Of a DNA stretch of 64,000 bases, positions 33,044 through 58,400 are shown in pieces. Made by a program: the position numbers and the translations under genes. Source of the DNA: Martinezella lusitana. Lineage in GTDB: Bacteria > Pseudomonadota > Alphaproteobacteria > Rhizobiales > Rhizobiaceae. The notes under the pieces were generated by a model that was not told the origin of the DNA, did no database searches, and saw nothing but the letters and a program-made list of their open reading frames with translations. The stretch spans positions 1 through 64,000 of the forward strand of contig NZ_JACHBG010000023.1 of assembly GCF_014207095.1 (NCBI RefSeq), read 5' to 3'. Numbering within the stretch: position 1 is the first letter of the stretch; each line of letters opens with the position of its first letter.

Positions 33044-33406
33044 ATGCTGCAATTCAACATACTGGGTCGTTTACGCACCGACGCGGACTTTAAGCGTCTG
33101 CGCTTGTTCACGACTGCGGCTCTCATGGCAGAGGGACGTAAGGAAGTTGAAGATTGGCGAAAGGACGGTTTCGACGCCGTCGATATGGAAAGTGCTGCCG
33201 TATTCTCAGTCGCTGAGTGTTTCAATATGCGAAAAGGCTCAATGCTTTTTGTTTCCGACCAGCCGTATAGTGAGAAGGGCCTCCTGCACACGGAACGAGA
33301 TGATCGACTACTCGAGCGGGTTGATGACTCTGTGATTGAGCTGATTCTCGCCTTCCTTGAGAAAAATAACCGAGTGGATATCGAAAATATTCAAACAGGC
33401 GCATGA
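33044..33406 (+). pseudogene. Nucleoside phosphorylase-like C-terminal fragment
   Basis: 120 codons. The segment G-F-D-A-V-D-M-E-S-A-A-V-F-S-V-A-E matches the purine-ribose binding motif (V-D-M-E-S/A) of nucleoside phosphorylases/MTA nucleosidases, followed by a D-Q-P-Y-S-type loop. The normal N-terminal half (phosphate-binding Gly-rich region) is absent, and upstream is the MITE-like repeat. It may be a truncated relic; alternatively a short stand-alone protein. Confidence 0.5.
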
Positions 33407-33888: not shown

Positions 33889-35097
33889 CTACTTCTTGCG
33901 GATGGCATAAACGAGCGATGTTATTGGCAAAGTTGTCGCCGCAAACAAGCCAAGGCAAGCTGCGATAGGAACTTCCAACCGAAGAAGAAAGGTGCTCAAC
34001 GCTAGCGCTAAAACGATAAAAAGGGAGCTCGAGATGTTGTTCGCAGCAAAGATACGGGACTTCTCGCTTTCATTGATGCATTGATAGAGCGACGACGAAA
34101 AGTGAGAAGCGTATATTCCCGAAGCCACCGCGATGACAAAGAAGTCAAGTAGCGTCCGATTGAGCGCGGAAGGGATCGAGAATTGCAAATCGACACCTGT
34201 GCTCGCGATCAGAACGGCCATTGCGCCGGGCAGGTACTCGGCTATCCGGCCCCGATTGAGCCAAGGGCCGCCTCCTAGCCCGAGGCCGGCGCCCAATGTG
34301 AAAGTCAGCAGGATCGATGCGATCTGCGCCTCGGATCCGAGCAAAGTATAGCGAACCAGCACTGCGACGTTCGAGAGATATACTGCACCCAATGCCCAGT
34401 ACCAGGAAAGCGCAAGGATGGAAGCCAACACGCGGCGGTCCTGTATGGCGAGACGAAGAATCCGCAGTGTCGGCGGGATTGGATTGATATCAAGTCTGCT
34501 GCGCGAGGCGCCCGCATTTGCAATGCCGGGACTGGCGATCGTCAAAAAAAACGACACGCCGACCATTAGCAGTGCGACAAGGCCAATTATTCCGCGATCC
34601 GGCTGAGCTCCGAGGATGGCGCCCAGGTAAGTCGCACATAAAATTGCGGCCATGGAGGCCGCTTCGACGGCGGCATAGCCTATCCCGTGCACCGAACGAG
34701 GAAGGAGATCCGAGACCAACGAATATTTGATCGGGCTATACAAAGTGGAAGTGACCCCCTTTGCAAATACCAGCGTCAGCAGAAGCGGGACACTGCCGAT
34801 GTAGAAGCCAAAGGCGGTACATGCCGCAATTATCAGGTCTGCATATCGGAGCCCAAGTGCAAGACTCCTTTTGTTGAAATAGTCGCCGAGATAGCCGCCA
34901 TGTGCCGAAAAGATGAAAAATGGCGCCATGAACAGAATCCAAGCCAGGGATGCCAGCCAACTGAGGCGCTCCGCATCTATATCGCTGCGGAATGCCAGGG
35001 ACACGATCACTGAATTCTTGAGCAGCACGTCGAAAGCCGCGTTCGAGGCGCCGATAACGCAATGCATCGCAAATGGCCAATTAACCGGATGTTTCAT
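33889..35097 (-). CDS. LplT-like major facilitator transporter of the phosphonolipid locus
   Basis: 402 residues from ATG 35097. A GTG at 35169 would overlap the preceding stop (GTGA), like the other junctions of the operon, but adds 24 residues before the usual N-terminus. About 10-12 membrane segments. The segment after helix 2 (G-D-Y-F-N-K-R-S-L-A-L-G-L-R) is the MFS loop motif. The sequence resembles lysophospholipid transporters (LplT), which flip lipids across the inner membrane. As last gene of a phosphonate-lipid operon it could move the phosphonolipid or its lyso form; that is inference. Confidence 0.8.
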   Translation of the reverse strand: MKHPVNWPFAMHCVIGASNAAFDVLLKNSVIVSLAFRSDIDAERLSWLASLAWILFMAPFFIFSAHGGYLGDYFNKRSLALGLRYADLIIAACTAFGFYIGSVPLLLTLVFAKGVTSTLYSPIKYSLVSDLLPRSVHGIGYAAVEAASMAAILCATYLGAILGAQPDRGIIGLVALLMVGVSFFLTIASPGIANAGASRSRLDINPIPPTLRILRLAIQDRRVLASILALSWYWALGAVYLSNVAVLVRYTLLGSEAQIASILLTFTLGAGLGLGGGPWLNRGRIAEYLPGAMAVLIASTGVDLQFSIPSALNRTLLDFFVIAVASGIYASHFSSSLYQCINESEKSRIFAANNISSSLFIVLALALSTFLLRLEVPIAACLGLFAATTLPITSLVYAIRKK

Positions 35098-35165
35098 CGC
35101 TTCGGTCGTCGGTCTATCGCAGTTCAGAGGGGTCGCGATCACACATGAATATGCGCGGTCCGGTT

Positions 35166-35933
35166 TCACTCTGGGAGACGGGCGAGGACGGCACAGGCGC
35201 GATAATGATCTGTCAACGGGAACACACCTTCCATGCGGGAGAACGTTGCAAGCTGAGAAACGTCAAGGTGGCAAAGAACATGGGCGAAGAAACCCGAATT
35301 CAGGCCGAAGCTGTAGAAGTCATCGAAGTTGGCGAAGCGCACCTCCTTCGTGAAATGTTCGACGGCAACTACATCAAGGCCGGCCTTCGCGCAGAAAGAG
35401 ACGATCGTGTCGGCGTCCTCTGGAGCCCTGTTTTTATCGCGGATGAATTGATCCGGAAGGACCGTGCGCGCCAACGAGTAGACGCGTGGAAATGCCTGAA
35501 ACGTGCTGCTGACGATCGAGTAGTATCCCTTTGCCTGCAAGAGCTTTGCGGTGCGCGCAACTATGTCTTCGCCATCGATAAAGGTCGTCAGGAAGTGCAT
35601 CAAGATTAGGTTCATGCTCTCAAGGGAGAAATGCTGCAGCGTATTAGCCACATCGTCGTGAACCGCATGAAAGCCCAACTTGGCCTTGGCGATACGCAAC
35701 ATCTCCCCAGAAAGGTCGATTCCGTGCAAGGCGGCGTTGGGGTAGTTCTTCTCGATCGCAATCAGCGATTCACCGGTTCCGACGGCGAGATCCAATACGT
35801 TTTGGGTCTGATCGGCAGTGACATGCTTGCTGATCTGCTCCAAAGCAAGAGCTCTGGCGCCAGCAAGCAGGCCGCGTTCATCATCATCATATGTCTCAGC
35901 TATGCGCTGATCGTATAGTCTGCCAATGTTCAT
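35166..35933 (-). CDS. Class I SAM-dependent methyltransferase
   Basis: 255 residues. SAM-binding motif I V-L-D-L-A-V-G-T-G-E-S near residue 46, motif II acidic residue in L-H-G-I-D-L-S-G-E-M-L, motif III in the following strand (H-D-D-V-A). Cytoplasmic. It lies 30 bp after the aminoethylphosphonate transaminase gene. Candidate substrate: the amino group of the aminoethylphosphonate head group (N-methylation, as PmtA does with phosphatidylethanolamine) or the lipid; the sequence alone does not decide. Confidence 0.85.
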   Translation of the reverse strand: MNIGRLYDQRIAETYDDDERGLLAGARALALEQISKHVTADQTQNVLDLAVGTGESLIAIEKNYPNAALHGIDLSGEMLRIAKAKLGFHAVHDDVANTLQHFSLESMNLILMHFLTTFIDGEDIVARTAKLLQAKGYYSIVSSTFQAFPRVYSLARTVLPDQFIRDKNRAPEDADTIVSFCAKAGLDVVAVEHFTKEVRFANFDDFYSFGLNSGFFAHVLCHLDVSQLATFSRMEGVFPLTDHYRACAVLARLPE

Positions 35934-35963
35934 GTGAGCGTATTCCCTATGATCTTTATCGGT

Positions 35964-37136
35964 TCAGCTGATATGTTGCGCGGTCTGCGCGCTTTTGCTG
36001 TTTTGGTCGAGCATGTCTTGTCGTAGATCGATCCCGCTTTCGGCCAAATATTCGCGGAGCATGTGCAGGAATGCCTCGATATCCTTCGGTTCGATCTGAC
36101 CAATGTTGGCCAGTCGGAAACAGTCGATCTGCCCGACTTTTCCGGGATAGATGGTAAAACCCCCGCTAAGAAGCGCATCGTGCATGGCATCGAAGCTGAA
36201 GTTGAGAGCTGGGGGCATCAGAAAGGTTGTCAAAAGCTTCGATTGTGGTAGATCCGGAACAGCCATTCCGAAGCCCAGTTCATCCATGCCCTTGACGAGG
36301 GCTTCCCAACAACTGCAGTAGCGCATGTAGCGCTTGATCTGAGATTCTTCAAAGAACTCGTCAAGAGCGGCATCTAGTGCATATAAAACCTGAACTGGTG
36401 GCGTGAAGCGCATCTGCAGGCTGCCGTGAAAGCTGCTATATTGCTTATATAGATCCATATACAAGCTTCTCGGGCGATAGTCCGGAGGCGGGTTGAGCAG
36501 CTTGCTACGGCAAATTGCAAAGGAGATACCAGCCATGCCCTGAATGCACTTGTTCGACGACGAAATGAGGACGTCGATAGGCGTTCTTCTCAAGTCGATA
36601 GGGATGCCTGCATAAGAGGACATTGCATCCACGATGAGCGTCACTCCAAACCGGCGCGTCAGCTCGCTTAACTGTTCTATCGGGTTAAGAACACCGGTGG
36701 TAGTTTCATGGTGCACGGCTACCACGTGGGTTATCGCCTTGTCCTTTCCGAGAAGCGCGGCTATGGCTTCCAGATCGGGCAGTCGATCGTAGCCAGTCTC
36801 GTGGATTGCCACCTGCTCCGGACCAAGATGGATATGGCACATCTCCAAGATGCGAAGACCATAGGCGCCATTGATCGACACCAGGATCTTGCCGTCCGCG
36901 GGAACCAGAGAACTGATGCAAGCCTCTACCGCGCATGTTCCGGAACCGGCGAAAATGACGGCACTATGTGTGTTTTCGCCGTGGACTACCTCCACCAACC
37001 GTCGCGCGATCTTTTCCTGTAGCCTGCCGAACTCGATCTCACGCGGACAAATGTCGGAGACGATCTGAGCCTGTTTCACCCGCTGGCTGGTTGTCGCCGG
37101 TCCTGGAGTCAAGAGAATGTTCCGCATCGGGATCAT
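35964..37136 (-). CDS. phnW: 2-Aminoethylphosphonate:pyruvate transaminase-like (PhnW-type) aminotransferase
   Basis: 390 residues, class V PLP-dependent aminotransferase. It starts with N-I-L-L-T-P-G-P-A-T-T, typical of PhnW, has F-A-G-S-G-T-C near residue 62 and the PLP Lys at residue 196 in S-S-S-N-K-C. In catabolism PhnW converts aminoethylphosphonate (AEP) to phosphonoacetaldehyde. Here, next to PEP mutase and phosphonopyruvate decarboxylase, it should run in reverse and aminate phosphonoacetaldehyde. The start overlaps the pntC-like stop by 4 nt. Confidence 0.9.
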   Translation of the reverse strand: MIPMRNILLTPGPATTSQRVKQAQIVSDICPREIEFGRLQEKIARRLVEVVHGENTHSAVIFAGSGTCAVEACISSLVPADGKILVSINGAYGLRILEMCHIHLGPEQVAIHETGYDRLPDLEAIAALLGKDKAITHVVAVHHETTTGVLNPIEQLSELTRRFGVTLIVDAMSSYAGIPIDLRRTPIDVLISSSNKCIQGMAGISFAICRSKLLNPPPDYRPRSLYMDLYKQYSSFHGSLQMRFTPPVQVLYALDAALDEFFEESQIKRYMRYCSCWEALVKGMDELGFGMAVPDLPQSKLLTTFLMPPALNFSFDAMHDALLSGGFTIYPGKVGQIDCFRLANIGQIEPKDIEAFLHMLREYLAESGIDLRQDMLDQNSKSAQTAQHIS

Positions 37137-37882
37137 GCTGGCTCTCCCGAAGCCGACACGATACGCGGCCAGATCACCGCATTTGCGCGTGCAAGATGAT
37201 CGAGCGTGTCGATTTCTGTCCAGGTCAGTTCCGTCTTTTCAACGTGCAGCGGGAGCGAGCGGGCAATCCCAACCAGACCTTCCTCGTAATGGAAGCCGAC
37301 GGGACGCTTGTGCCCATTACGCGACAGCCACGCATCGAGGGCAAGCGGAACGCTGCGCTCGAGCTTGCAGATCCCGACAAGCTCCGCATCGATACGCGCC
37401 AACGAGCCGCGGTCTTTTGACAGGTTCACGAGATGCGAACGATCGTCCGTCTGAATGTAGACCTCATCTCCCGATCCGGTATGCCCGGAGGCAAGCACGA
37501 CATTGGGAAACGGGCACCCCAGCACTCGATCGATCATCGCCGCATCATAAAGCAGATCGGACTCGAGCGAGAGAAAGTCGCAACCCAGGTCTCGCGTACA
37601 AAGCAGAAGCGTTTCGAGGCTGCCCGAATTGGCAAAATCACTGTTAGCAATGCAATCGATTTGCACGTGCCTGATGCGCGAGGATAGCGCCTCGTACTCC
37701 GATGCCATGTATCCCGTTCCGATAACGATGCGGCGGATACCACGATCCGCCAGAATTTCGATCGATCGTTCGACGATCGGCTGTCCGGCGACGGGTATAA
37801 AACCCTTGGGGGCGTTGTGGGAATATTCCGATATTCTGCTGCCAAGCCCCGCGGCCATGATGACCGCTGTATCGATGCTCAT
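37133..37882 (-). CDS. pntC: CMP-2-aminoethylphosphonate cytidylyltransferase (PntC-type)
   Basis: 249 residues, nucleotidyltransferase fold with the signature M-A-A-G-L-G-S-R near residue 9 and K-G-F-I-P-V-A near 26; the metal-binding Asp is in L-E-S-D-L-L-Y. Such proteins next to an AEP transaminase and PEP mutase are PntC enzymes, which activate AEP with CTP to CMP-AEP. It overlaps its neighbours by 4 nt on both sides. A sugar-phosphate nucleotidyltransferase is the general family alternative, but the context favours PntC. Confidence 0.85.
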   Translation of the reverse strand: MSIDTAVIMAAGLGSRISEYSHNAPKGFIPVAGQPIVERSIEILADRGIRRIVIGTGYMASEYEALSSRIRHVQIDCIANSDFANSGSLETLLLCTRDLGCDFLSLESDLLYDAAMIDRVLGCPFPNVVLASGHTGSGDEVYIQTDDRSHLVNLSKDRGSLARIDAELVGICKLERSVPLALDAWLSRNGHKRPVGFHYEEGLVGIARSLPLHVEKTELTWTEIDTLDHLARANAVIWPRIVSASGEPA

Positions 37883-39012
37883 TTCATGAACTCCTGCAGC
37901 CGGCGCACCGCATCGGCGGGCGAAATGGTGGGGCGTCCCAGTGGTGAAATCGAGCCTGGCGCTATCGAGACATGCAGAAAGGTTAGCCGCGATTGTGCCA
38001 GCCAGTCGTCCAGAGCCTGCTCGACCTCACCCAGGTTTGAAGCGCTCGCCACATGCGAATATCCGGCACCGTGCGCGATCATGGGCCAGTTCATCCCACG
38101 CGATGCTGTAGCTTGCCCACCAGTCGAATCATGCGTTTCGTTGTCAAGCAGAACGTGAAGAAGGTTGTCGGGTCGATAGCAGGCGTTAGTCGCCAGATTT
38201 CCCATGCGCATAAGCAGGGCGCCGTCTCCATCGAGCGCGATGATCTTTCGTTCGGGTCTTGCGATGGACAGTCCAAGTCCGATTGAGGAGATGCAGCCCA
38301 TGGAGCCGACCATGTAAAAATTGTTCGGCGCATCCTCGAGTGTGAAGAGCTCTCGTCCGCACATTCCCGTTGTTGCAAGCAGTACCGTGTCATCACGCTT
38401 GCAATTGGAGAACACCTTCAGCACGTCATAACGGCGGGGTCGCTGGAGGTCACTTCCGGCGATTGGGATCGTCAAGGTTCCACCTTGATATGCCTGGAGC
38501 GGTGAGGAACGTAGATCCAGCGAAGAGAAGGTGTTCTTCGATACAAGAAAGAAGACAGACTTGCCTCTTCGCAGGAAGTTCTGGGCCTCTTCCAGCTGCC
38601 TTGCGGCAGAGGATAGATCGGTCTTCAGATGAATAACATGCACACCGCTCGTCTCCAGCAGCGGTCGTGTAATCTGTCCCATAAACTCATGTTGGACCTC
38701 GTCTGGAACACCGTCTTCGCCGCGAAAGCCAACGAAGCCAGTAACCGGAAGCTCACAGATGTTGGTCAGCGACGTCAGTGGAGCGAGCGCATTTGTAAGT
38801 CCGGAATTCTGGAGGAGAACTGCCGATTTCTTGCCGCCAAGCTGAGCGCCGGTTGCGATGGCAACAGCTTCGCCCTCGTTCGTCGCAGCGACATAATCGA
38901 GTGAATTGTTGGCGAGATTGATCAGAGGCTGCAGAAGGGAACACGGGACTCCCGAAAACAATTCGTAGCGGTATGACTGCAGCAGGGCCCCGAATTCGCT
39001 CGTATCGATCAT
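37879..39012 (-). CDS. Phosphonopyruvate decarboxylase
   Basis: 377 residues, TPP-dependent decarboxylase. The N-terminal PYR domain has F-S-G-V-P-C-S and the catalytic Glu in A-T-N-E-G-E-A. The PP domain contains the TPP motif [11 protein letters not shown] and, 27 residues after [14 protein letters not shown], which is characteristic of phosphonopyruvate and sulfopyruvate decarboxylases. It makes phosphonoacetaldehyde, the irreversible step that pulls PEP mutase forward. Overlaps the pepM stop by 4 nt. Confidence 0.93.
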
Positions 39013-39926
39013 GGCCGCTGGCCCACAGCAACATAATTCCTGGTGTCATTTAGCTCGCCGGGGAGGTATTTTTCCTCGGCCCGCTGTAGTTCATCAGCAC
39101 CTTGGAGTCGGAATATTTCCGACACCGGAGCGATCTTGTCCTCTTGATGCGTGATCGACTGCATCTTGAAGATGTCTTCGGCGGTCTTGCGCATCACGGA
39201 TATGGCGGATCGAAGAATGTGGTTTGCCCAGATAATCGTGGAGACGCCGAGTTTTTCGAAGTGAGGCGTCGGCGTGGAATGATAGGTCGTCGGAACGATG
39301 ACGACGGGATGCCGATTGCCCCATTCCCTCATGAAGGCTTCGATCTCCTCAGGCCCACGCTTCTTGCTATGCACCAGAATGGCGTCGGCGCCCGCCAAAC
39401 GGTAGGCTTCGGCGCGGTTAAGCGCTTCTTTCAAGCCCGCCCCTACAATCATGGCTTCTGTTCTCGCAACAATCACGAAATCATCGTCCCGTTGCGTATC
39501 TTTTCCGGCTTTGATCTTCCCGCAGAATTCGTCGACCTCGGCCAGTCCCTGTTTTTCGCCGTCGATAAAGGAATTGGTTTTCGGGAACAGCTTGTCTTCG
39601 ATGCACACACCGGCCACCTGGCGGGACTCGAGCTTCGAGACCAGCCGGCGCAAGTTGTTGAAATTGCCGTAGCCGGTATCACCGTCAAGAAGGATAGGAA
39701 CGCGCGTGGCATCGCTCATGAATTCCACAAACTCGAGGACTTGGGTCCAACTGGCTTCATTGTTGTCGCGAACCCCCATCGAGCCTGAGAGGGTCAAGCC
39801 ACTCGCCCATATCCCCTTGAACCCTGCTTCTTCGACGATGCGGGCGCTCAAGCCATTGTGAGCCTCGCATAGGAAATCCAGCTCCTCCCTGCGAAGCATC
39901 TTTTTGAGTTGCGTTGTCTTCTTCAC
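39009..39926 (-). CDS. pepM: Phosphoenolpyruvate mutase
   Basis: 305 residues from a GTG at 39926 with AAGGA 9 nt upstream. Isocitrate-lyase superfamily barrel. The active-site motif [10 protein letters not shown] at residues 110-119 is exactly the E-D-K-x5-N-S signature that separates PEP mutase from other members; [10 protein letters not shown] near 79-88 binds the metal. It converts PEP into phosphonopyruvate, forming the C-P bond. A gap of about 215 bp separates it from the CDP-alcohol phosphotransferase gene upstream. Confidence 0.95.
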
Positions 39927-40142
39927 AGTCTAATTCCTTCAAATCTCATGGTCTTGGCACGAGGATGTTTCGCCATATGGGCTCTGTGCCTTTTGAGGAC
40001 GACGTCACCCGCTCCGGAAAGCCGCGTCTGCTGCTCACGAATGACCTGTTCTGCCAGAGAACGGCGTCGCGACAGCGAAAATTGCGTTTGGCTGGCGTTA
40101 CGACGGCGTCATTGAACGCGCCGCCTGGCAGAAGGTCCGGCG
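39927..40142 (-). other. Gap between lipid-synthase genes and pepM
   Basis: About 215 bases inside an otherwise tightly packed operon. A short minus-strand frame is open but its residues are not recognisable. It may hold a second promoter for the AEP-forming genes; no strong motif was seen. Confidence 0.35.
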
Positions 40143-40829
40143 TTAAGAGTGCTTTCCTGTTCGGGTGAAGCTCTTCTTCGAGGCGAGAACCATCAGGCCG
40201 ATCTCCAGAAGCGTGAAAGGAACCGCGATGTAGTAGGCCAGTAGAACGGTTCCTAGGAGATCGAGCCTGGGAAGAAAACCGATCTGGAGACTGAAGCCCG
40301 GAAAGCAAAATATTGCAACCATGAGAGCCGCGTATGCATAAATCTCGAAGCTCCAACCCAGCCGAGTTATGAACAGTTGGCCTGCATATATGCGAATGAC
40401 GTATGTCCAGCATGCGAGGGCTTGCCGCAGCAACATGGCACCGAAGACCAGAGCTTCATGGAGATCGAACCTGTAGATGATGGCGGCCTGGAGGACGAAG
40501 AAGCCAAGAGCATCCCCGAAGTGGTCGAGAAATCCCCCGAATTCGCTAGATTGCCCCGTATTCCTGGCATGAATGCCATCGCAGGAGTCCAGTAGGATCC
40601 ATAGCACCAGTAAGGCGGCGCATATAAGAAGCGAGTAAGGTTGTGTCGACAGCGCAAGAGTTGCTGCTGCAGCAAAGCCGATACAGATTGCCGCAAGCGT
40701 TAGGATGTTCGGATGAACAGATCGTGGAATATGTGCGACAAATTTCGACAATAGAGGATAGATCAGTCGATCCGTTATATCGTGGTTGGTAGCGGACGGT
40801 TTTGCAACAGATGGCTCCTGTCGGATCAT
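40143..40829 (-). CDS. CDP-alcohol phosphotransferase, candidate phosphonolipid synthase
   Basis: 228 residues, about six membrane segments. The complete family motif D-x2-D-G-x2-A-R-x8-G-x3-D-x3-D is present: Asp81, Asp84, Gly85, Ala88-Arg89, Gly98, Asp102, Asp106. Such enzymes join a CMP-activated head group or diacylglycerol to an alcohol at the inner membrane. In this operon the natural reading is CMP-AEP + diacylglycerol to AEP-lipid + CMP, the analogue of Kennedy-type ethanolamine phosphotransferase. It overlaps the HAD phosphatase gene by 4 nt. Confidence 0.9.
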   Translation of the reverse strand: MIRQEPSVAKPSATNHDITDRLIYPLLSKFVAHIPRSVHPNILTLAAICIGFAAAATLALSTQPYSLLICAALLVLWILLDSCDGIHARNTGQSSEFGGFLDHFGDALGFFVLQAAIIYRFDLHEALVFGAMLLRQALACWTYVIRIYAGQLFITRLGWSFEIYAYAALMVAIFCFPGFSLQIGFLPRLDLLGTVLLAYYIAVPFTLLEIGLMVLASKKSFTRTGKHS

Positions 40830-41551
40830 GTATTTTTTCCAATTATTTGCTGTACAGATGTCTTAGCGTGACGGAGGCCGTGATATTTAGGCGAGGTGAA
40901 AACCCTCGTTTCCCAGTTGCGCGACTTCGCGTGGCGCTTGAGTTTGGCGTCCGGATTGATCGCTACCGGATAGCCAACGATTTCAAGCATATGTCGGTCC
41001 TGCCAGTGATCGCCATATGCATGGCATTGATCAAGTGCGATACCGTTGCGCTGAGCGTAGTCTTGCACAATCTTGGCTTTCGCCTTGCCGAACGGAATTG
41101 GCCCTCGCACTTCACCTGAAAACTGATCACCGTGGGTTTCAAGAAACGTTGCATGGCATTCGTCGACTTTGAGATAGTCTCCCGCTTTCAATGCGATGAA
41201 ATCGATCGTTGCAGATACGATGACTATCTTATCTCCAGCCTGCCTATGCTTCTCGATCTGAGCAAGCATCCCTGGATAGAAAGCTTTGCTGAGCTTTGCC
41301 TCGAACAGTTTCTCATAGATATCAACGCAAGGTCTGATACTCTCTCCTGAGAACAATTCCCGAAGTATCTTTCGCTTTAAATTCCCGGTACCGTTAATCA
41401 AATGCAGATCATACCTCAGCTGCAGGCTGATGATCTTGACGAAATTCTTGAAGCTGATACCACCACGCGCGAGCTGATGATACGCAAAAACCTTCTCTCC
41501 GACGCAATCCCAAAGAGTCTTATCAAGATCAAAGAAAGCTGCAGCAGGCAT
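40826..41551 (-). CDS. HAD-IB family phosphatase of the phosphonolipid operon
   Basis: 241 residues from ATG 41551; the frame is open to 41623 but the start at 41551 places the motif at the N-terminus. HAD motifs: I F-F-D-L-D-K-T-L-W, II V-S-A-T, III Lys in G-K-A-K-A-K-I, IV G-D-H-W-Q-D. SerB-type HAD phosphatases also include lipid phosphatases. A possible role here is to convert phosphatidate to diacylglycerol for the phosphotransferase, but a soluble substrate is equally open. First gene of the operon. Confidence 0.85.
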   Translation of the reverse strand: MPAAAFFDLDKTLWDCVGEKVFAYHQLARGGISFKNFVKIISLQLRYDLHLINGTGNLKRKILRELFSGESIRPCVDIYEKLFEAKLSKAFYPGMLAQIEKHRQAGDKIVIVSATIDFIALKAGDYLKVDECHATFLETHGDQFSGEVRGPIPFGKAKAKIVQDYAQRNGIALDQCHAYGDHWQDRHMLEIVGYPVAINPDAKLKRHAKSRNWETRVFTSPKYHGLRHAKTSVQQIIGKNT

Positions 41552-42095
41552 TGTAAGTCTTTCGGTGACGCCAATAGATGTGAGTGCACAGCCGCGCCTT
41601 GAATAGAAGCGCTGATGTGGCAATCATTACAGCAATTCACTCTTGTATTTGGTAGGTTTGTATTACGAAGATATACGAACGCGAACATGAAGCATTATCG
41701 TATCGGGTGATACCTCGCGATTGGTGCTCCGCTGCTGCGCAATAGCGTTATAGAAAATGCCTGCAGATTTGAAAGAGGAATCGCTCCCTTAAAGTCCTAC
41801 CTCGGTGTCTCATATTTGGGTATATCGAGTTAGGCGCGAGGCAGAGCGGCATTTCATCACCCATCGAGGTCGCGCTAATTCAGCACGATCTGAAATGTGA
41901 GCATCAACACTATCGCAGGAGCTTTACATCCGCGCGATTGCAGATCAAGGGTGGTGGCTGGTTGGGGCGACCTGGATCACCGATCGACAGTCTGAGATAT
42001 CACACGGCTCGCGATCGCGAAGGCTCGAGAGTCCAATCGATATCATGGGGGAGGAAGAATGTGTGGCGATCGAAATGCGCCGTCGCACGGCTTAC
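41552..42095. promoter_or_regulatory. Upstream region of the phosphonolipid operon
   Basis: About 540 bases with no supported gene, AT-rich from 41630 to 41700. It should contain the operon promoter for the minus-strand genes. I could not identify -35/-10 elements with confidence. Confidence 0.4.
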
Positions 42096-43010
42096 TCAGT
42101 TTCCGCCACGCAGATGCTGAAGCGCCCAGTGAAAAGACGCATCGATCGCAGCGAATTTGGATGCCTGCCAACGTCGATGATCCCCGATCAGCATTTCGGA
42201 AATCCAGAAATTGCCACCATTGCCGGGAAGCTCCCATCCGATGACACCGAGATTGCGTGCGCGCACGAAGACGCGTTGGGCATGACTGCGAGAGATGATG
42301 TAGCGCTTGGCGAGCTCCCCGATGCGCAAAGGTCCGATCGACATCTTTGGCTCCAGTAGCCGCTCTGGCGACAGTCTCGACATCACGTCGTGCAGGATAT
42401 TGCTACCCGACGCTGTCCGAACAAATGCGTCCACCGCTTCGGGTGGTTCACACCAGTTCGGGTCGCCAAACAGCGACCTGGACATTCTCGGTTGTGCGTA
42501 CCAAAGTAGCCGGTGATCCGCCGCAGATTGCAGATAGCGTGTCCCTTGGTCGAGCGTGTCGAGTGATTTCAAATGCTCGTCGAACCATTCGCGGATCAAT
42601 CCTTCTGCAGTATCGACAATCCTCAGCGGACGAACGCGCTTGTCGCCTTCTGGCGTGGCGTCTACGAGAAGCCGGTAATTGCGCATCTCGGCCAGATGCG
42701 CGGTTGCCGTGTTCCTGCTTGCAACCTTGCTGTCGGCGATAAATGTGATCAGATTCGCGGCTGATAGGCTGGGCTTTGTCGGGTCGGTGACCGTCTCAAA
42801 ATGAAAAGCTAGAATTGCTTGGGTCAGCAGCCACCTTTTCATGTCCGCCGTATAGCGCACGATCCGCGGAGCAGCATCGTGCATAGCAATTAGCTTCAAC
42901 GCGGCGTTTCTGAGCGCGACAGCAAAGAGCGGATTCTCCGTGATCGCGTCGATCGTCAGGGGATGATGCGCATTGCTAACGGCGAGCATCGGGGTTGGGA
43001 CGAAATTCAT
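42096..43010 (-). CDS. Unknown protein with probable winged-helix segments
   Basis: 304 residues from ATG 43010, with GGAG 8 nt upstream. Not a family I can name. The middle (S-K-V-A-S-R-N-T-A-T-A-H-L-A-E-M) and the C-terminal third (I-G-E-L-A-K-R-Y-I-I-S-R-S-H-A-Q-R-V-F) both read like helix-turn-helix segments, so a DNA-binding regulator is plausible. Same direction as, and upstream of, the phosphonolipid operon, hence a candidate regulator of it. Length and codon use look like a real gene. Confidence 0.7.
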   Translation of the reverse strand: MNFVPTPMLAVSNAHHPLTIDAITENPLFAVALRNAALKLIAMHDAAPRIVRYTADMKRWLLTQAILAFHFETVTDPTKPSLSAANLITFIADSKVASRNTATAHLAEMRNYRLLVDATPEGDKRVRPLRIVDTAEGLIREWFDEHLKSLDTLDQGTRYLQSAADHRLLWYAQPRMSRSLFGDPNWCEPPEAVDAFVRTASGSNILHDVMSRLSPERLLEPKMSIGPLRIGELAKRYIISRSHAQRVFVRARNLGVIGWELPGNGGNFWISEMLIGDHRRWQASKFAAIDASFHWALQHLRGGN

Positions 43011-51854: not shown

Positions 51855-52468
51855 CGTTACTTTCGGCGAAATGAGAGATTTTCGCCCCTCCTTGAGCCGA
51901 CAGACGAGGAGGTGACTCGGGCACCGGTTGTTGTTCGTGATCCATCGCTAGCCCTGTCATGCCTTGTTTATATCGAACGACAGCACACGCTCGATTCGCG
52001 GAAGCCGTCGGTTTTGATAGCAGTGTCCTCCTCACCGACAATTGTGGATGCCATCTTCATCAACGCGATATATCTGAATAAACGAGGTATTCGGAGCTGA
52101 GATAGCGGGCAACGGTTCTATTCCACTTCGAGAGCAGAAAAGATGCCAGCGAACTTGGCGCCTCCGCGCTAATCGCGGAATGAGCTCTTTCGAGGGGATA
52201 GGCCTTCGTCATCGGCCAAGCGAATCGTCCCAGCCAGCCCGAGGATTGCAGGCCCTCGCCAGCGTCTCGAACATCAATTTTCGATCGCATGTCAAAAATG
52301 GATGTGGCCCTTTGGCAGAATATTCCTAACGTCACCGGAAACGGCGATGTGAGGGCGACTGGTTTAGCGTGATGCGCCGGCGCTCGCTCTTGGTGTGCCG
52401 AACGAATGGACGATGAAAGGGAGTGGCGTGCGGCTTTGGTTGCCGGCCTCCTGCTGAAGGTGATGGCA
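51855..52468. other. Intergenic region upstream of the giant adhesin
   Basis: About 600 bases with no supported gene; only short shadow frames. It presumably carries the promoter of the haemagglutinin gene. No TpsB gene or repeat was seen. Confidence 0.4.
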
Positions 52469-55400
52469 ATGACCAGACAGACGACCCGCATGACGCTGTC
52501 CCATAAGACCCGTCTCGTTGCGCTGCTTGCCTCGACGGCACTGGTGCATTCGACGGCGGTGCTGGCGCAGTCGCTGCCTTCAGGCGGTCAGGTGGCAGCC
52601 GGCAGTGCGACGATCGGGTCGCCATCGGCAGGGGCTCTGACGATCAACCAGACGAGCGGCAGCGCCGTCGTCAACTGGCAGAGCTTTGACGTCGGCAAGG
52701 GCAACCGCGTCACCTTCGTCCAGCCGGATGCCAATTCAGCCATCCTCAATCGCGTCACCGGTCAGACGAGTTCGACCATATCAGGTCAGATCAATGCTAA
52801 TGGCCAGGTCTATCTGATCAATCCGAACGGCATTGCCATTTCCAATTCAGGCACGGTCAAGGCCGGCGCCTTCGTCGCCTCGACGCTCGGCATCTCCGAT
52901 GACGATTTCATGGGTGGCAAGCGGACGTTTACCGGCAATGGCGCCTCGGCGCCGGTGACGAATGCCGGTGCGATCACGATTAACCGCGGCGGCTATATGG
53001 CGCTGATCGGCGGCACGGTCGCCAATTCCGGTGTCATCACCGTGCCGATGGGCAAGGCAGCACTCGGGTCGGGCGAGCAGGCAACGCTTGATCTGTCCGG
53101 CGACGGCTTTCTGCAGGTGGCAGTGCCGACCAAGGCTAAAGGTAGTGGGGCACTGGTCGACAATAGCGGCAAGATTTCTGCCAGAGGCGGGACGGTACAG
53201 CTCACCGCAGCAGCGGCGAGAGACATGGCGCGCCAGGCGGTCAACATGTCGGGCACGATCGAGGCGAGGGGTGTCTCGGGCAGAAGCGGCGATATCGTGC
53301 TGTCGGGTGGCGATGGCGAGATGGCGATCTCAGGCAAGATCGATGCCAGCAGCAAGCATGGCACCGGCGGCAAGGTGCAGGTGACCGGCCGCAAGATCAC
53401 GCTTGCCAATGCGAAGATCAATGCCTCTGGCAAGACCGGTGGCGGCACGGTCAATATCGGCGGCAACCGCCAGGGCAAGGGGACGCTGCAGCATGCCGAG
53501 ACGCTGACGGTTGATGCCAACACCGTCATCAATGCCGATGCGGTCACGACAGGCCATGGCGGCAATGTCGTTCTGTGGTCGGATGATCTGACCCGCTTTG
53601 CCGGCACGATCACGGCGAAGGGCGGTTCGATCTCCGGCAATGGCGGCGAGGTGGAGGTCTCCGGCAAGGCGAAACTCTCCTACACCGGCCTGACCGATCT
53701 GACCGCCACTCACGGTTCGTTCGGCAATCTGCTGCTCGATCCCTATAATGTGACGATCTCGACGGCGACGGACAGCAATTCCTCCGGCTTCACGGCGACA
53801 GGCAATGACAGCATCATCAATGTCAACACGCTGACCAATGCGCTCGCAACTGCCAATGTTACGGTGACGACGGGCTCGTCGTCGGATGCCACCAATCCGC
53901 AGGCCGGCACCATCACCGTCGCGGCGCCGATCGCCTGGACCTCCGGCTCGACGCTGACGCTGAATGCCGCCTCGGACATCAACATCAACGCGGCGATCAC
54001 CGCCACGACCGGCGGACTGACGCTCGCCTCGGGCGGCACGATCTCCGCACCGGCTGCCGTCAGCATCGGCGGCACCTTCAACCTCACCTCGGGCAACTGG
54101 GTGCAGAACACGGCCGCACTGCCCACCTACTCAGCCAAGGACTTCCAGCTCACCGGCGGATCCTTCCTGCGCGTCACCGGCGGCGACGGCTCAAGCGCCA
54201 CACCCTATACGCTCGCCGATGTCTACGGCCTGCAGGGCATCGGGTCGTCCGGCGCATCACTGGCCGCCAAGTGGACGCTCGCCAACAATATCGATGCCTC
54301 CGGTACCGCCAACTGGAATGCAGGCGCAGGGCTCAATCCCATCGGAACCTATTCCGTGACCTTTTCGGGCGTCTTCGATGGTGCGAGCCACATTATTACC
54401 GGCCTGACGGTCAATCGAGCGGCTAGTTTTCTCGGGCTATTCGGTAACTCGGCGGGAACCATCCAAAACATCGGGCTGACCAGCGAGTTTATCAATGGCT
54501 ACTCCTATACGGGAGGATTGGTCGGTAACAATACCGGCACGATCAATAACGCTTTCACGACCGGCACCGTCAACAGCATACAATATGTCGGAGGGCTGAC
54601 TGGATGGAATTCCGGTTCGATTAACAACAGCTCCGCCACCACTGCGGTCTCAGGCAGCTATGATGTCGGCGGATTGGTCGGTCACAATCATGGATCGATC
54701 AGCAATAGTTACGCCGCCGGCGCAACTTACGGCTCGAATACCTATGCCGGTGGTCTGGCCGGCTTCGATGATGGCACAATCAAATTTGCCTATGCCACTG
54801 GCTCCGTAAGCGGCAATACATATGTTGGCGGCCTAGTGGGGTATAATGATTCCGGAAGCTCCATAGATAATGCCTATGCCACGGGCGCAGTTAGCGGGAG
54901 CGTCGCCGTCGGCGGCCTGGTGGGCCGAAACTTCTATAGCACCATCACCAACAGCTTCTGGGATGTCTTCACGACCGGGCTATTCAATGGCTCCGGCCAA
55001 TCCTTTTTCGGCATGTTCCGGGCGATCGGCCTCACGACCGAACAGATGCGCGATTCGGCCAACAACGCCACGAACTACGCGGGCTGGGATTTCGCCAACA
55101 CTTGGTATCAGTCCGGCAATATGCGCCCGATCCTGCGCTCGGAGGCTGCAACCGCCAACGCGAACGGCATAGCCACGATCAACAATCTGCATCAACTCGC
55201 ACTGATCAGCGTCAATCCGTCGGGCAACTATGTGCTCAGCGCCGACATCGATGCCTCGGCCACCGCAGGCACCAATGCCTCCGGCGTCTGGGATTCAGTG
55301 AACGATATAGATGGCGGCTGGCAGCCGATTGTCACCTTCACTGGCAGCCTGGACGGCGCGGCTCACACGATCAGCGGGTTGACCTCCTCTTCGGGCGGCC

Positions 55401-58400
55401 TGTTCGGAACCATCGGCGGTGGCGCTAGCGTCAGCAATCTCTCGCTTAAAGCCGCCGACATCAAAGCCTATACTCCGTTGGCGGCGATGCTTGCGAGCGC
55501 CAACGCGGGCTCCATTACGTCCGTATCGGTGAGCGGAACCGTGTTGGGCGGCTTGGATGCCGGTGGCCTCGTGGGCAGCAACAGCGGCACGATCATCTCA
55601 TCCTCCGCGAGCGGATCGGTGACAGGCAGCGGAGATCTCGGCGGCCTTGTCGCCAACAACAGCGGCTCCATTTCGGGCTCCAGCACGTCTGCTTCCGTTA
55701 CCGGCGAGACCTATGGTGGATCCGAGGGACGCGGCGGACTGATCGGCCGCAACAGTGGCACCATCTCCAATTCCTTCGCCACAGGCATCCTAAGCGACCT
55801 CAGTGCTATTTCGTGGGGCGGTCTTGTGGGTATCAATACCGCAACGGGTATTATCAACCAGTCCTACGCGTCTGGTTCCGCGAATATTGCCTACGCCCTT
55901 TACAGCGGCGGTCTCGTTGGGCTGAACAATGGCAGCATCACACAATCCTTTGCCACGGGCGGCATTGGCGGGTATGCAAACGAATTTACCGGCGGCCTCG
56001 CGGGGTATAACACAGGGATTATCTCGCAGTCTTATGCTCTGGGTTCCGTGAGTGGCAGCAAAGCAGGCGGGCTGGTCGGATATAACACCTCCACCGGCCA
56101 GATCAGCCACTCCTATGCGGCCGTGTCGGCCAGTCGCGGCGGTCTTGCCGCGTTCAACGACGGCACAATCACCAATTCGTTCTGGAACCTGACCGTTTCG
56201 GGCCGACCTGCGGCCTCCGGCGGGGGCAGCGGCACGATCACCGGCACGACCGGCCTGACGACGGATCAAATGGCTAATCCGTTCCTCTTCATCGACGCCG
56301 GCTGGGATTTCGGTTTGATCTGGGCGATGTCGAAGACTGGCGGCGCGCCGGTGCTGCGCGGCCTGACCTCCGACCCGATATTAAATTACTACGTCCGTCT
56401 GAGCGGTAACACCTCATCGATCTACGGTGATGTGGCCTCGGTCTCCGGCATCGCGCTTGATGGTTATGGAACCGGCAATGTCAGCATCGGCTGGGGTAGC
56501 GCCGCCAACGTCGGCACCTACGCCTATGGCGACGCCAATGTACTGGCGCTTAGCTATTCCACCGGAGTAGCCAGCGACTATTATATCGATTACGGCTCGG
56601 GCAGTCTGACCATCAACAAGCGGGTGATCTCGCTCTCCGGCAGCCGCACCTATGACGGTACGACCAGTGTCTCCGCTGGCAATCTGACACTTTCCAACCT
56701 TGCCAACGGCGAGACTCTGACGCTCTCGGGCATAGGTTCGATGGCCGATAAGAATGCAGGCTCGGGCAAGGCGGTTTCGCTCGGTTCGCTCTCGCTCGAC
56801 GATGGCTCGGGCCTTGCCTCGAACTATACGCTGATCGGCGGCACCGACACGGTCGATATCAGCAAGGCGACGATCTCGTCGATCTCAGGCATTACGGCCT
56901 TGGGCAAGACCTATGACGGCAACACGACTGCGACGCTGAACACGGGTAGCGCCGTCTTCAATGGCATGCTCGTCGGCGACAGCCTGACGCTCGGCACTGG
57001 CGTCACCGGCGCCTTCTCCGACAGGAATGTCGGCGCCGGCAAGACTGTGACGATCTCGGGCCTCATGCTCAACGGTACGGATGCCGGCAACTATACGCTT
57101 GCCCTGGATACGGCGACGACGACGGCCGATATCACCAAGGCGACGATCTCTTCGATCACTGGCATCACGGCTTCGGGCAAGACCTATGACGGTACCACGA
57201 GTGTCGTCCTGAACACCTCTGGTGCAGGCTTCTCCGGCATGGTCGGTGGCGACGCATTGACAGTCGCGACCTCAACCGGCGCCTTCGCCGACAAGAACGC
57301 CGGCATCGGCAAGGTGGTCAACATCTCCGGCATGACGCTTGGCGGCGCCGACGCAGGCAACTATACGCTCGCTTTGGATACAGCGACGACGACGGCAGAC
57401 ATCGCCAGGGCGACGATCTCCTCGATCACCGGCATCACCGCCAACAACAAGACCTATGACGGCAACACGACGGCAACGCTGAACACATCGGGTGCGGGCT
57501 TTACCGGCATGCTCGGTGGCGACGTTCTGACGGTTGCGACCTCGAGCGGCACCTTCTCCGACAAGAATGCCGGCGCCGGAAAGACCGTTGGCATCACCGG
57601 GTTGACGCTCGGCGGCACGGATGCGGGCAACTACACACTCGTCTCCCACATCGCAGCGACGACGGCGGATATCGCCAAGGCCTATGTGGCTTTCGGCGGC
57701 ACCAGCGTCAACACCAAGACCTATGACGGGACGACCGCGGCCAGCGTCAATATTTACACGATACCGATCAGCGGCGATGACATGCATGTTGGCTACACCA
57801 GCGCCAACTTCTCCGACAAGAATGCCGGCACGTCCAAGACGGTCGCCGTCGATGGACTTTACATAACCGGCGCGGATGCCGGCAATTACCAGCTTGGCAT
57901 CACCAGCACGACCAGCTACGGCACCATAACGCCTGCGATCATCACTTCGATCGGCGGCATCACCGCCGGCAACAAGGCCTATGACGGCACCACCGATGCG
58001 CCGCTCGATACGTCTGGCGCCGTCTTCAACGGCATGATCCAGGGTGACAATCTGACGGTCGCCACCGCGCTCGGCGCCTTCTCCGATAAGAATGCCGGCG
58101 CCGGGAAGACGGTCGACATCTCCGGCCTGACCTTGGGTGGTGCTGACGCGTATAACTACAGGCTCAACATAAACACGGCCTCAGCCATTGCTAATATCGG
58201 CCAGCGCGTGATCAGCCTTTCGGGCAGCCGCACCTATAACGGCTCGGTCAATCTCGATGCCTCGATCTTCGCACTGTCGAACCTGGTGGGGGGCGAGACG
58301 CTGGCGCTGTTGGGCACCGGCACCATGGCCGACAAGAATGCCAGCTCGGGCAAGGCGGTGACGCTCGCCTCATTGATGCTGGGCGACAGCATCCAAGGCG

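Follow-up and report, generated by a model that had tools for sequence, protein, structure and literature searches.

What would a rhizobial operon produce that pairs predicted carbon–phosphorus bond formation with a cytidine diphosphate (CDP)-alcohol phosphotransferase? The question is raised by eight open reading frames (ORFs), all on the minus strand, at positions 33889-41551 of a 64,000-nucleotide stretch of Martinezella lusitana DNA (NCBI: GCF_014207095.1, contig NZ_JACHBG010000023.1, positions 1 to 64,000), hereafter the window. A sequence-only reading of the window had assigned these same-strand genes to eight named families, and the ORF positions together with Pfam and NCBIfam matches agree with those assignments. 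From sequence alone, we estimate a probability of about 0.6 that the operon makes an aminoethylphosphonate glycerolipid via a bacterial Kennedy-type pathway.

In the proposed pathway, PepM would convert phosphoenolpyruvate (PEP) to phosphonopyruvate, Ppd would decarboxylate this to phosphonoacetaldehyde, AEPT would form 2-aminoethylphosphonate (AEP), and a PntC-type enzyme would activate AEP to its cytidine monophosphate (CMP) derivative, CMP-AEP. The CDP-alcohol phosphotransferase would then take AEP from CMP-AEP and attach it to the free hydroxyl group of diacylglycerol, an acceptor probably supplied by the HAD-IB phosphatase through dephosphorylation of phosphatidic acid. The finished lipid, or a lyso form of it, would cross the inner membrane through an LplT-like MFS protein; the methyltransferase may modify the head group or the phosphonate in some way. 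Homology to characterized enzymes supports the predicted steps as far as CMP-AEP; transfer to diacylglycerol, the role of the HAD phosphatase, flipping, and methylation are steps that we infer.

The route from PEP to CMP-AEP, already laid out in the sequence-only reading, has good support from family cut-offs and from similarity to a characterized enzyme. PepM scores 380.8 bits against the NCBIfam equivalog TIGR02320 (cut-off 319.55), and the EDK-x5-NS motif that had been attributed to it lies at residue 110. Its closest solved relative is the PEP mutase 1m1b (E = 2.9e-126), which we take to be the Mytilus enzyme. Ppd exceeds the cut-off of TIGR03297 (361.0 against 312.5 bits), as does AEPT those of TIGR03301 (405.3 against 360.8) and PRK13479 (364.2 against 296). 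Because AEPT falls below the cut-off of the PhnW model TIGR02326 for 2-AEP–pyruvate transaminase (347.2 against 400.8), its score mildly favors the biosynthetic direction, which would rest mainly on PepM and Ppd. The cytidylyltransferase (NTP) and AEPT have the same protein as their best solved match, the Treponema denticola PntC-AEPT fusion (6pd1/6pd2; E = 2.6e-47 for NTP and 1e-91 for AEPT). This fusion (Tde1415) forms CMP-AEP in vitro, with Arg15, Lys25, Lys153, Glu104, and Glu196 named as residues of interest (PMC6697681, in excerpt); in the window its two activities correspond to separate, overlapping genes. Close NTP relatives occur in three of the 398 sampled phylum genomes at E 1e-25, own genome included. 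The same genome carries a second PEP-mutase-family gene (L044:9454-10362) near an amino-acid-kinase gene; it has DDK-x5-NS, not EDK, scores 267.9 bits, below the PepM cut-off, and possibly belongs to another phosphonate or hydrolase locus.

Beyond CMP-AEP, the argument for a lipid turns on the CDP-alcohol phosphotransferase. It scores 50.9 bits against PF01066 (cut-off 22), and its DSCDGIHAR-x8-GGFLDHFGD sequence fits D-x2-D-G-x2-A-R-x8-G-x3-D-x3-D exactly, as had been claimed. CHPT1, CEPT1, and CPT1 filled ranks 1-5 of nine solved relatives in a profile search, above bacterial CDP-diacylglycerol enzymes, and single-sequence phmmer also placed a cholinephosphotransferase first among solved relatives. 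A Foldseek search with the AlphaFold model ranked first 8ul9, a cholinephosphotransferase with diacylglycerol that is presumably from yeast (TM 0.70 by query); it was the sole match at E 0.001 or better. The third Asp (D3) is followed by His (DHFGD) in all four orthologues, a residue that eukaryotic CDP-alcohol phosphotransferases reportedly conserve and most bacterial ones lack (PMC10182977, in excerpt). This His is absent from all 26 CDP-alcohol genes compared from other Rhizobium genomes, which we take to be PssA, from all four pepM-linked genes of Burkholderiaceae and Roseomonas, and from the CDP-alcohol enzymes of R. leguminosarum, M. japonicum, and Sulfitobacter. A reaction between a CDP-alcohol and diacylglycerol is therefore moderately supported for the predicted enzyme. 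Of the transfer to diacylglycerol proposed earlier, the lipid part stands as plausible, given, in one operon, an LplT-like transporter and an enzyme like the choline/ethanolamine phosphotransferases (CPT/CEPT), whose substrates are a CDP-alcohol and diacylglycerol; as for diacylglycerol being the acceptor, this we infer.

Several observations weigh against this glycerolipid assignment. An extended motif, G2ExxD3HxxD4, has been proposed for eukaryotic CDP-alcohol phosphotransferases, with Glu and His absent from most bacterial ones, and substituting either the His or the Glu with Ala nearly abolishes activity of Xenopus CHPT1 (PMC10182977, in excerpt). For CEPT1, His155 or His197 has been proposed as the base (PMC10156783, in excerpt). 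The partner Glu of G2-ExxD3H is Gly in all four orthologues of the window enzyme; since both residues are needed in Xenopus CHPT1, the known catalytic pair is incomplete. With this Glu missing, the phosphotransferase may work like the choline/ethanolamine class, yet we do not file it as a member. Its sequence matches to CPT1 are weak in absolute terms (best E 1e-6), and the AlphaFold model has a mean predicted local distance difference test (pLDDT) score of 62.5, which weakens the Foldseek result. Upstream in the pathway, the PntC residues Arg15, Lys25, Glu104, Lys153, and Glu196 align (HMMER) with R16, K26, E107, K156, and E200 of the window NTP, a correspondence that is not diagnostic. A 33%-identical NTP in genome G1142 keeps the same Arg, Lys, and Glu residues (by eye) beside inositol-phosphate-synthase-like and CDP-alcohol genes, and the 16 kb read around it gave no match to PepM. 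Given this inositol-like setting, the residues are no proof of AEP specificity, and gene context points to AEP as the NTP substrate more than the residues do. Finally, the HAD family is broad.

As the pathway itself needs no phosphatase, phosphatidic acid is our guess for the HAD substrate; the motifs DLDKT and GDHW(Q/E)D are present in four of four orthologues. Plasmid relatives of the HAD protein amount to 48 records, and the 15 listed show 26-31% identity. For one HAD relative, in Tsukamurella, a neighboring gene encodes a lysophospholipid acyltransferase, a context too weak to fix the substrate. The transporter had been described as LplT-like, and it indeed matches PRK06814, an acyl-ACP-phospholipid O-acyltransferase fusion, in the LplT-like N-terminal part (residues 44-423, E = 3.3e-55). 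This match lies under the PRK06814 cut-off, which was set for a 1140-residue fusion. The transporter also matches an H+ antiporter model (E = 2.6e-8) and, weakly, LplT itself (E = 5e-4); a search of solved chains at E 1 gave no match. Among 53 plasmid records of transporter relatives, the 15 listed show 28-33% identity and, where annotated, are acyl-ACP-phospholipid O-acyltransferases or MFS proteins. The transporter ORF has no acyltransferase or ligase domain, unlike the Aas-type fusions.

For the methyltransferase, the earlier suggestion of a perhaps N-methylated product found no specific support, and the protein is a generic class I S-adenosylmethionine (SAM) enzyme. It scores 23.7 bits against the PLipidMtase_Leg model (cut-off 390), with no match to PmtA above background. 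Among 29 generic SAM matches to solved chains, a phosphatidylethanolamine N-methyltransferase ranked ninth (E = 0.003), with phosphoethanolamine N-methyltransferases weaker still (E = 0.013-0.042); it is because of this weakness that head-group N-methylation lacks specific support. At a mean pLDDT of 41.2, the AlphaFold model built for this enzyme was set aside. A link to the pathway is supported by the gene cluster of Rhizobium freirei and by an AEPT-methyltransferase remnant on a Neorhizobium plasmid, both described below.

Table 1. Features of the operon and its upstream region (window positions).
Feature	Position	Strand	Basis
HAD-IB phosphatase (TIGR01490), first gene	40826..41551	-	family match; DLDKT and GDHWQD motifs
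CDP-alcohol phosphotransferase, choline/ethanolamine-phosphotransferase-like	40143..40829	-	full D..DG..AR motif and His after Asp3 (DHFGD)
PEP mutase PepM/AepX, GTG start	39009..39926	-	TIGR02320 and EDK-x5-NS motif
Phosphonopyruvate decarboxylase Ppd/AepY	37879..39012	-	TIGR03297
Putative AEP cytidylyltransferase (NTP), T. denticola PntC type	37133..37882	-	best solved match
2-Aminoethylphosphonate aminotransferase AEPT	35964..37136	-	TIGR03301; T. denticola fusion (AEPT half) as best solved match
Class I SAM-dependent methyltransferase, generic family	35166..35933	-	family matches
MFS transporter resembling the LplT domain in Aas-type fusions	33889..35097	-	ATG start 35097, common to R. freirei
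Promoter-like block TTTCAA - 16 bp - TATAAC	41747..41774	-	putative role, from conservation only
17-base upstream element TACCCAAATATGAGACA	41806..41822	-	strongly conserved block, alignment of four upstream regions
304-aa protein without a family assignment, candidate regulator	42096..43010	-	adjoins the cluster in R. freirei too (77%)

Is the gene set kept together beyond this genome? An orthologue of the phosphotransferase is present in four of 148 Rhizobium genomes, own included (77-100% identity); after these come other CDP-alcohol enzymes, none better than E 1.9e-10. Wider even samples returned our genome alone, namely 1 of 394 from the family (E 1e-14), 1 of 385 from the class, and 1 of 398 from the phylum (both E 1e-12); these samples share members, missed the other three carriers, and allowed no more than seven scored candidates in a genome. 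No phosphotransferase relative was found among 72,556 plasmid records at E 1e-5. The other carriers, from a scan of genome contigs, are Rhizobium freirei PRF 81, Rhizobium sp. ASV8, and Rhizobium sp. ASV20. R. freirei PRF 81 has all eight genes in identical order (75-91% identity) plus the upstream 304-aa gene. In ASV8 and ASV20, only the HAD, phosphotransferase, and PepM genes and part of Ppd are visible because the contigs end inside Ppd. Ratios of nonsynonymous to synonymous substitution (dN/dS) against R. freirei are 0.04-0.13 for every one of nine genes (the operon's eight plus that of the 304-aa protein), and 0.05-0.15 in ASV8 and ASV20, where three genes could be tested; with dS at 0.6-3.3, these values are rough. 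Order and identity in R. freirei, together with low dN/dS, show that the gene set is conserved beyond chance.

The comparison with R. freirei also bears on the gene junctions. The claim that five of seven junctions overlap is correct for the window when the transporter is started at GTG 35169, but the fifth overlap is not kept in R. freirei, which retains four of -4 bases each (HAD/phosphotransferase, PepM/Ppd, Ppd/NTP, and NTP/AEPT). We rejected GTG 35169 because the R. freirei transporter has no overlapping start and the comparison gives ATG 35097 as the common one, 68 bases past the methyltransferase stop (76 in R. freirei). The phosphotransferase and PepM genes are 216 bases apart in the window, against 220 in R. 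freirei. G+C content is 0.48 and 0.52 in the first two genes, 0.54-0.58 in the other operon genes, and 0.57-0.61 in eight window genes outside the cluster; the low values of those two leading genes hint modestly at a foreign origin.

The surroundings of the cluster vary. By eye, the window copy is flanked by an ABC transporter, the R. freirei cluster by exopolysaccharide-type genes and an acetate-kinase-like gene, and that of ASV20 by IS21-like transposase genes. A plasmid of Neorhizobium sp. EC2-8 (L064:11800-12761) holds a broken operon remnant, with an AEPT fragment and a frameshifted methyltransferase at about 67%, near amino-acid ABC transporter, MmgE/PrpD-like, and ArgH-like genes, which look by eye like those flanking the operon in the window. 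At 33044-33406, adjoining the operon, a 120-aa nucleoside-phosphorylase-family piece matches profile positions 140-232 of 233 only and looks like a truncated remnant.

How far, then, does this operon differ from loci already described? Clusters of pepM, ppd, AEPT, an NTP transferase, and a CDP-alcohol phosphatidyltransferase in Nostoc (lichen) and Burkholderia have been proposed as phosphonolipid loci (PMC5987646, in excerpt, citing Yu et al. 2013 PNAS), and the window has this same core, likewise clustered. The excerpted legend also shows a 2-oxoglutarate (2OG)-Fe(II) oxidase and HpnL, neither of which is among the eight window genes; HAD, LplT-like MFS, and methyltransferase genes stand there instead, and the CDP-alcohol enzymes of the Burkholderiaceae loci compared lack the D3-His. 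The operon could be an ordinary member of the described pepM phosphonolipid loci, with a product that is not really different, an alternative that we consider unlikely but take seriously. Core enzymes accompany a CDP-alcohol enzyme in Mycetohabitans and Roseomonas, which fit the published cluster type, as they do in the Nostoc and Burkholderia loci themselves. Yet the CDP-alcohol enzymes of Mycetohabitans, Cupriavidus, and Roseomonas are of a different class (Leu after the third Asp; 23-27% identity), and tblastn of the window HAD, methyltransferase, and MFS proteins returned nothing at E 1e-4 in the stretches compared. Mycetohabitans and Roseomonas have a lysylphosphatidylglycerol-synthase-domain protein, and Mycetohabitans also a 2OG-Fe(II) oxygenase. 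In Roseomonas marmotae (L007:9055-20852), the pepM cluster lies beside the hopanoid genes ispH, hpnH, shc, and hpnE, a layout hinting at a phosphonate–hopanoid link.

The remaining alternatives concern the product. CMP-AEP might decorate a surface polysaccharide or another non-glycerolipid carrier as a phosphonoglycan, the CDP-alcohol enzyme transferring AEP to a polyprenol, a sugar, or a small alcohol. The exopolysaccharide-type genes beside the R. freirei cluster (by eye) fit such a product, as does genome G1008, where the 10.5 kb read shows a PepM-Ppd-AEPT-PntC set but no CDP-alcohol enzyme. With no glycosyltransferase or LicD-like gene within the eight-gene unit, a CPT/CEPT-like CDP-alcohol enzyme, and listed genes beside the window copy that are not of the R. 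freirei polysaccharide type, we regard a glycan or other non-glycerolipid carrier as rather unlikely. Alternatively, the phosphotransferase may take a phosphorylated acceptor (glycerol 3-phosphate or a phosphorylated polyol), with the HAD enzyme removing the phosphate afterwards to leave a soluble or differently built AEP ester. Phosphate is removed after transfer in the PgsA/Pgp and inositol-phosphate phosphotransferase pairs, a 4-base overlap joins the HAD gene to that of the phosphotransferase in both the window and R. freirei, and archaeal inositol-phosphate enzymes are among the phosphotransferase relatives. CPT1 and CEPT1 nevertheless outrank the inositol-phosphate enzymes in phmmer and profile searches, the structure search places CPT1 first and AF2299 second, and the operon contains an LplT-like transporter, all of which make this scheme improbable. 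Least probable, in our judgment, is a small diffusible antibiotic-like phosphonate, for which the MFS protein would be the exporter and the methyltransferase a tailoring or self-protection enzyme. Both genes are present, and a SAM methyltransferase reportedly acts in pantaphos biosynthesis; however, a cytidylyltransferase with a CPT-like membrane enzyme suggests a membrane acceptor, and the MFS protein matches phospholipid-type LplT domains far better than the H+ antiporter model (E values given above).

The set in G1008 (L071:2836-7458), with names given by eye, lies among TPR and radical-SAM-like genes; it includes a PepM-NTP fusion along with Ppd, AEPT, and a PntC-like gene apart from the fusion, and may be a phosphonoglycan locus. 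Further pepM clusters occur on the M. japonicum pMLa and R. leguminosarum Vaf10 plasmids (L046:7953-14707 and L009:7992-11581), with a class I/II aminotransferase, a cytidylyltransferase-like gene, and a short CDP-alcohol enzyme; they also include dehydrogenase or asparagine-synthase-related genes, and no decarboxylase is annotated in the stretch.

Two Kennedy-type systems invite comparison. The four-Asp motif and D3-His are common to the window phosphotransferase and the eukaryotic CPT1, CHPT1, and CEPT1 (PMC10182977 and PMC10156783, in excerpt). At 228 residues against 380-406 in these proteins, the window enzyme is shorter, has Gly in place of Glu, and presumably uses CMP-AEP as donor. The CDP-choline pathway of T. 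denticola is likewise a bacterial Kennedy-type route from a CDP-alcohol donor and diacylglycerol, but the head group there is phosphocholine, and a LicCA fusion activates it (PMC8590670, in excerpt). Bacterial steps after AEP have been termed enigmatic; the PntC paper assigned the cytidylyl step, presumed lipid or glycan capture, and, in the excerpted text, describes loci with LicD-like phosphotransferases or glycosyltransferases (PMC6697681). Against this background, the operon is a small candidate for lipid capture of AEP, with a possible acceptor source and a transporter in one unit, in root-associated bacteria including R. freirei PRF 81.

The sequence-only reading had not known the full set to be described in rhizobia. 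The literature titles and abstract openings listed, a coverage that mostly leaves out subscription papers, agree, as they yielded no rhizobial phosphonolipid cluster, and excerpts of PMC3899980, PMC1544339, and PMC6429109 contain nothing on lipid attachment genes. That novelty must be narrowed, however, since related pepM clusters are annotated on the R. leguminosarum and M. japonicum plasmids and the general type is published (PMC5987646). The core cluster type is known; the phosphotransferase class, LplT-like transporter, HAD phosphatase, and methyltransferase set this operon apart.

Upstream of the operon, the element TACCCAAATATGAGACA occurs once per genome in all four carriers (≤2 mismatches), exact in three and with one mismatch in ASV8, while its reversed control pattern has 0 occurrences in the same four genomes. 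The best Pho box match upstream fits 9 of 14 specified positions, giving no evidence for phosphate control. The 304-aa protein has paralogues in each of the four carriers (5-7 matches per genome). In ASV8 and ASV20 its best full copies (66-67%) are on other contigs; in ASV8, fragments of it adjoin the cluster, and the ASV20 cluster contig showed none. That this neighbor regulates the operon is a guess. A fuller version of the Kennedy-type phosphonolipid pathway, one not found described in the papers searched, in which a compact D-His enzyme acts on diacylglycerol, the lipid is methylated, an LplT-like flippase moves it outward to form a phospholipase-resistant surface lipid in a few Rhizobium strains, and an operon-specific element controls expression, is tentative and, taken whole, on the doubtful side. 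Elsewhere in the window, a protein of 2827 aa (positions 52406-60889) combines a two-partner-secretion domain with YDG and MBG domains that are repeated.

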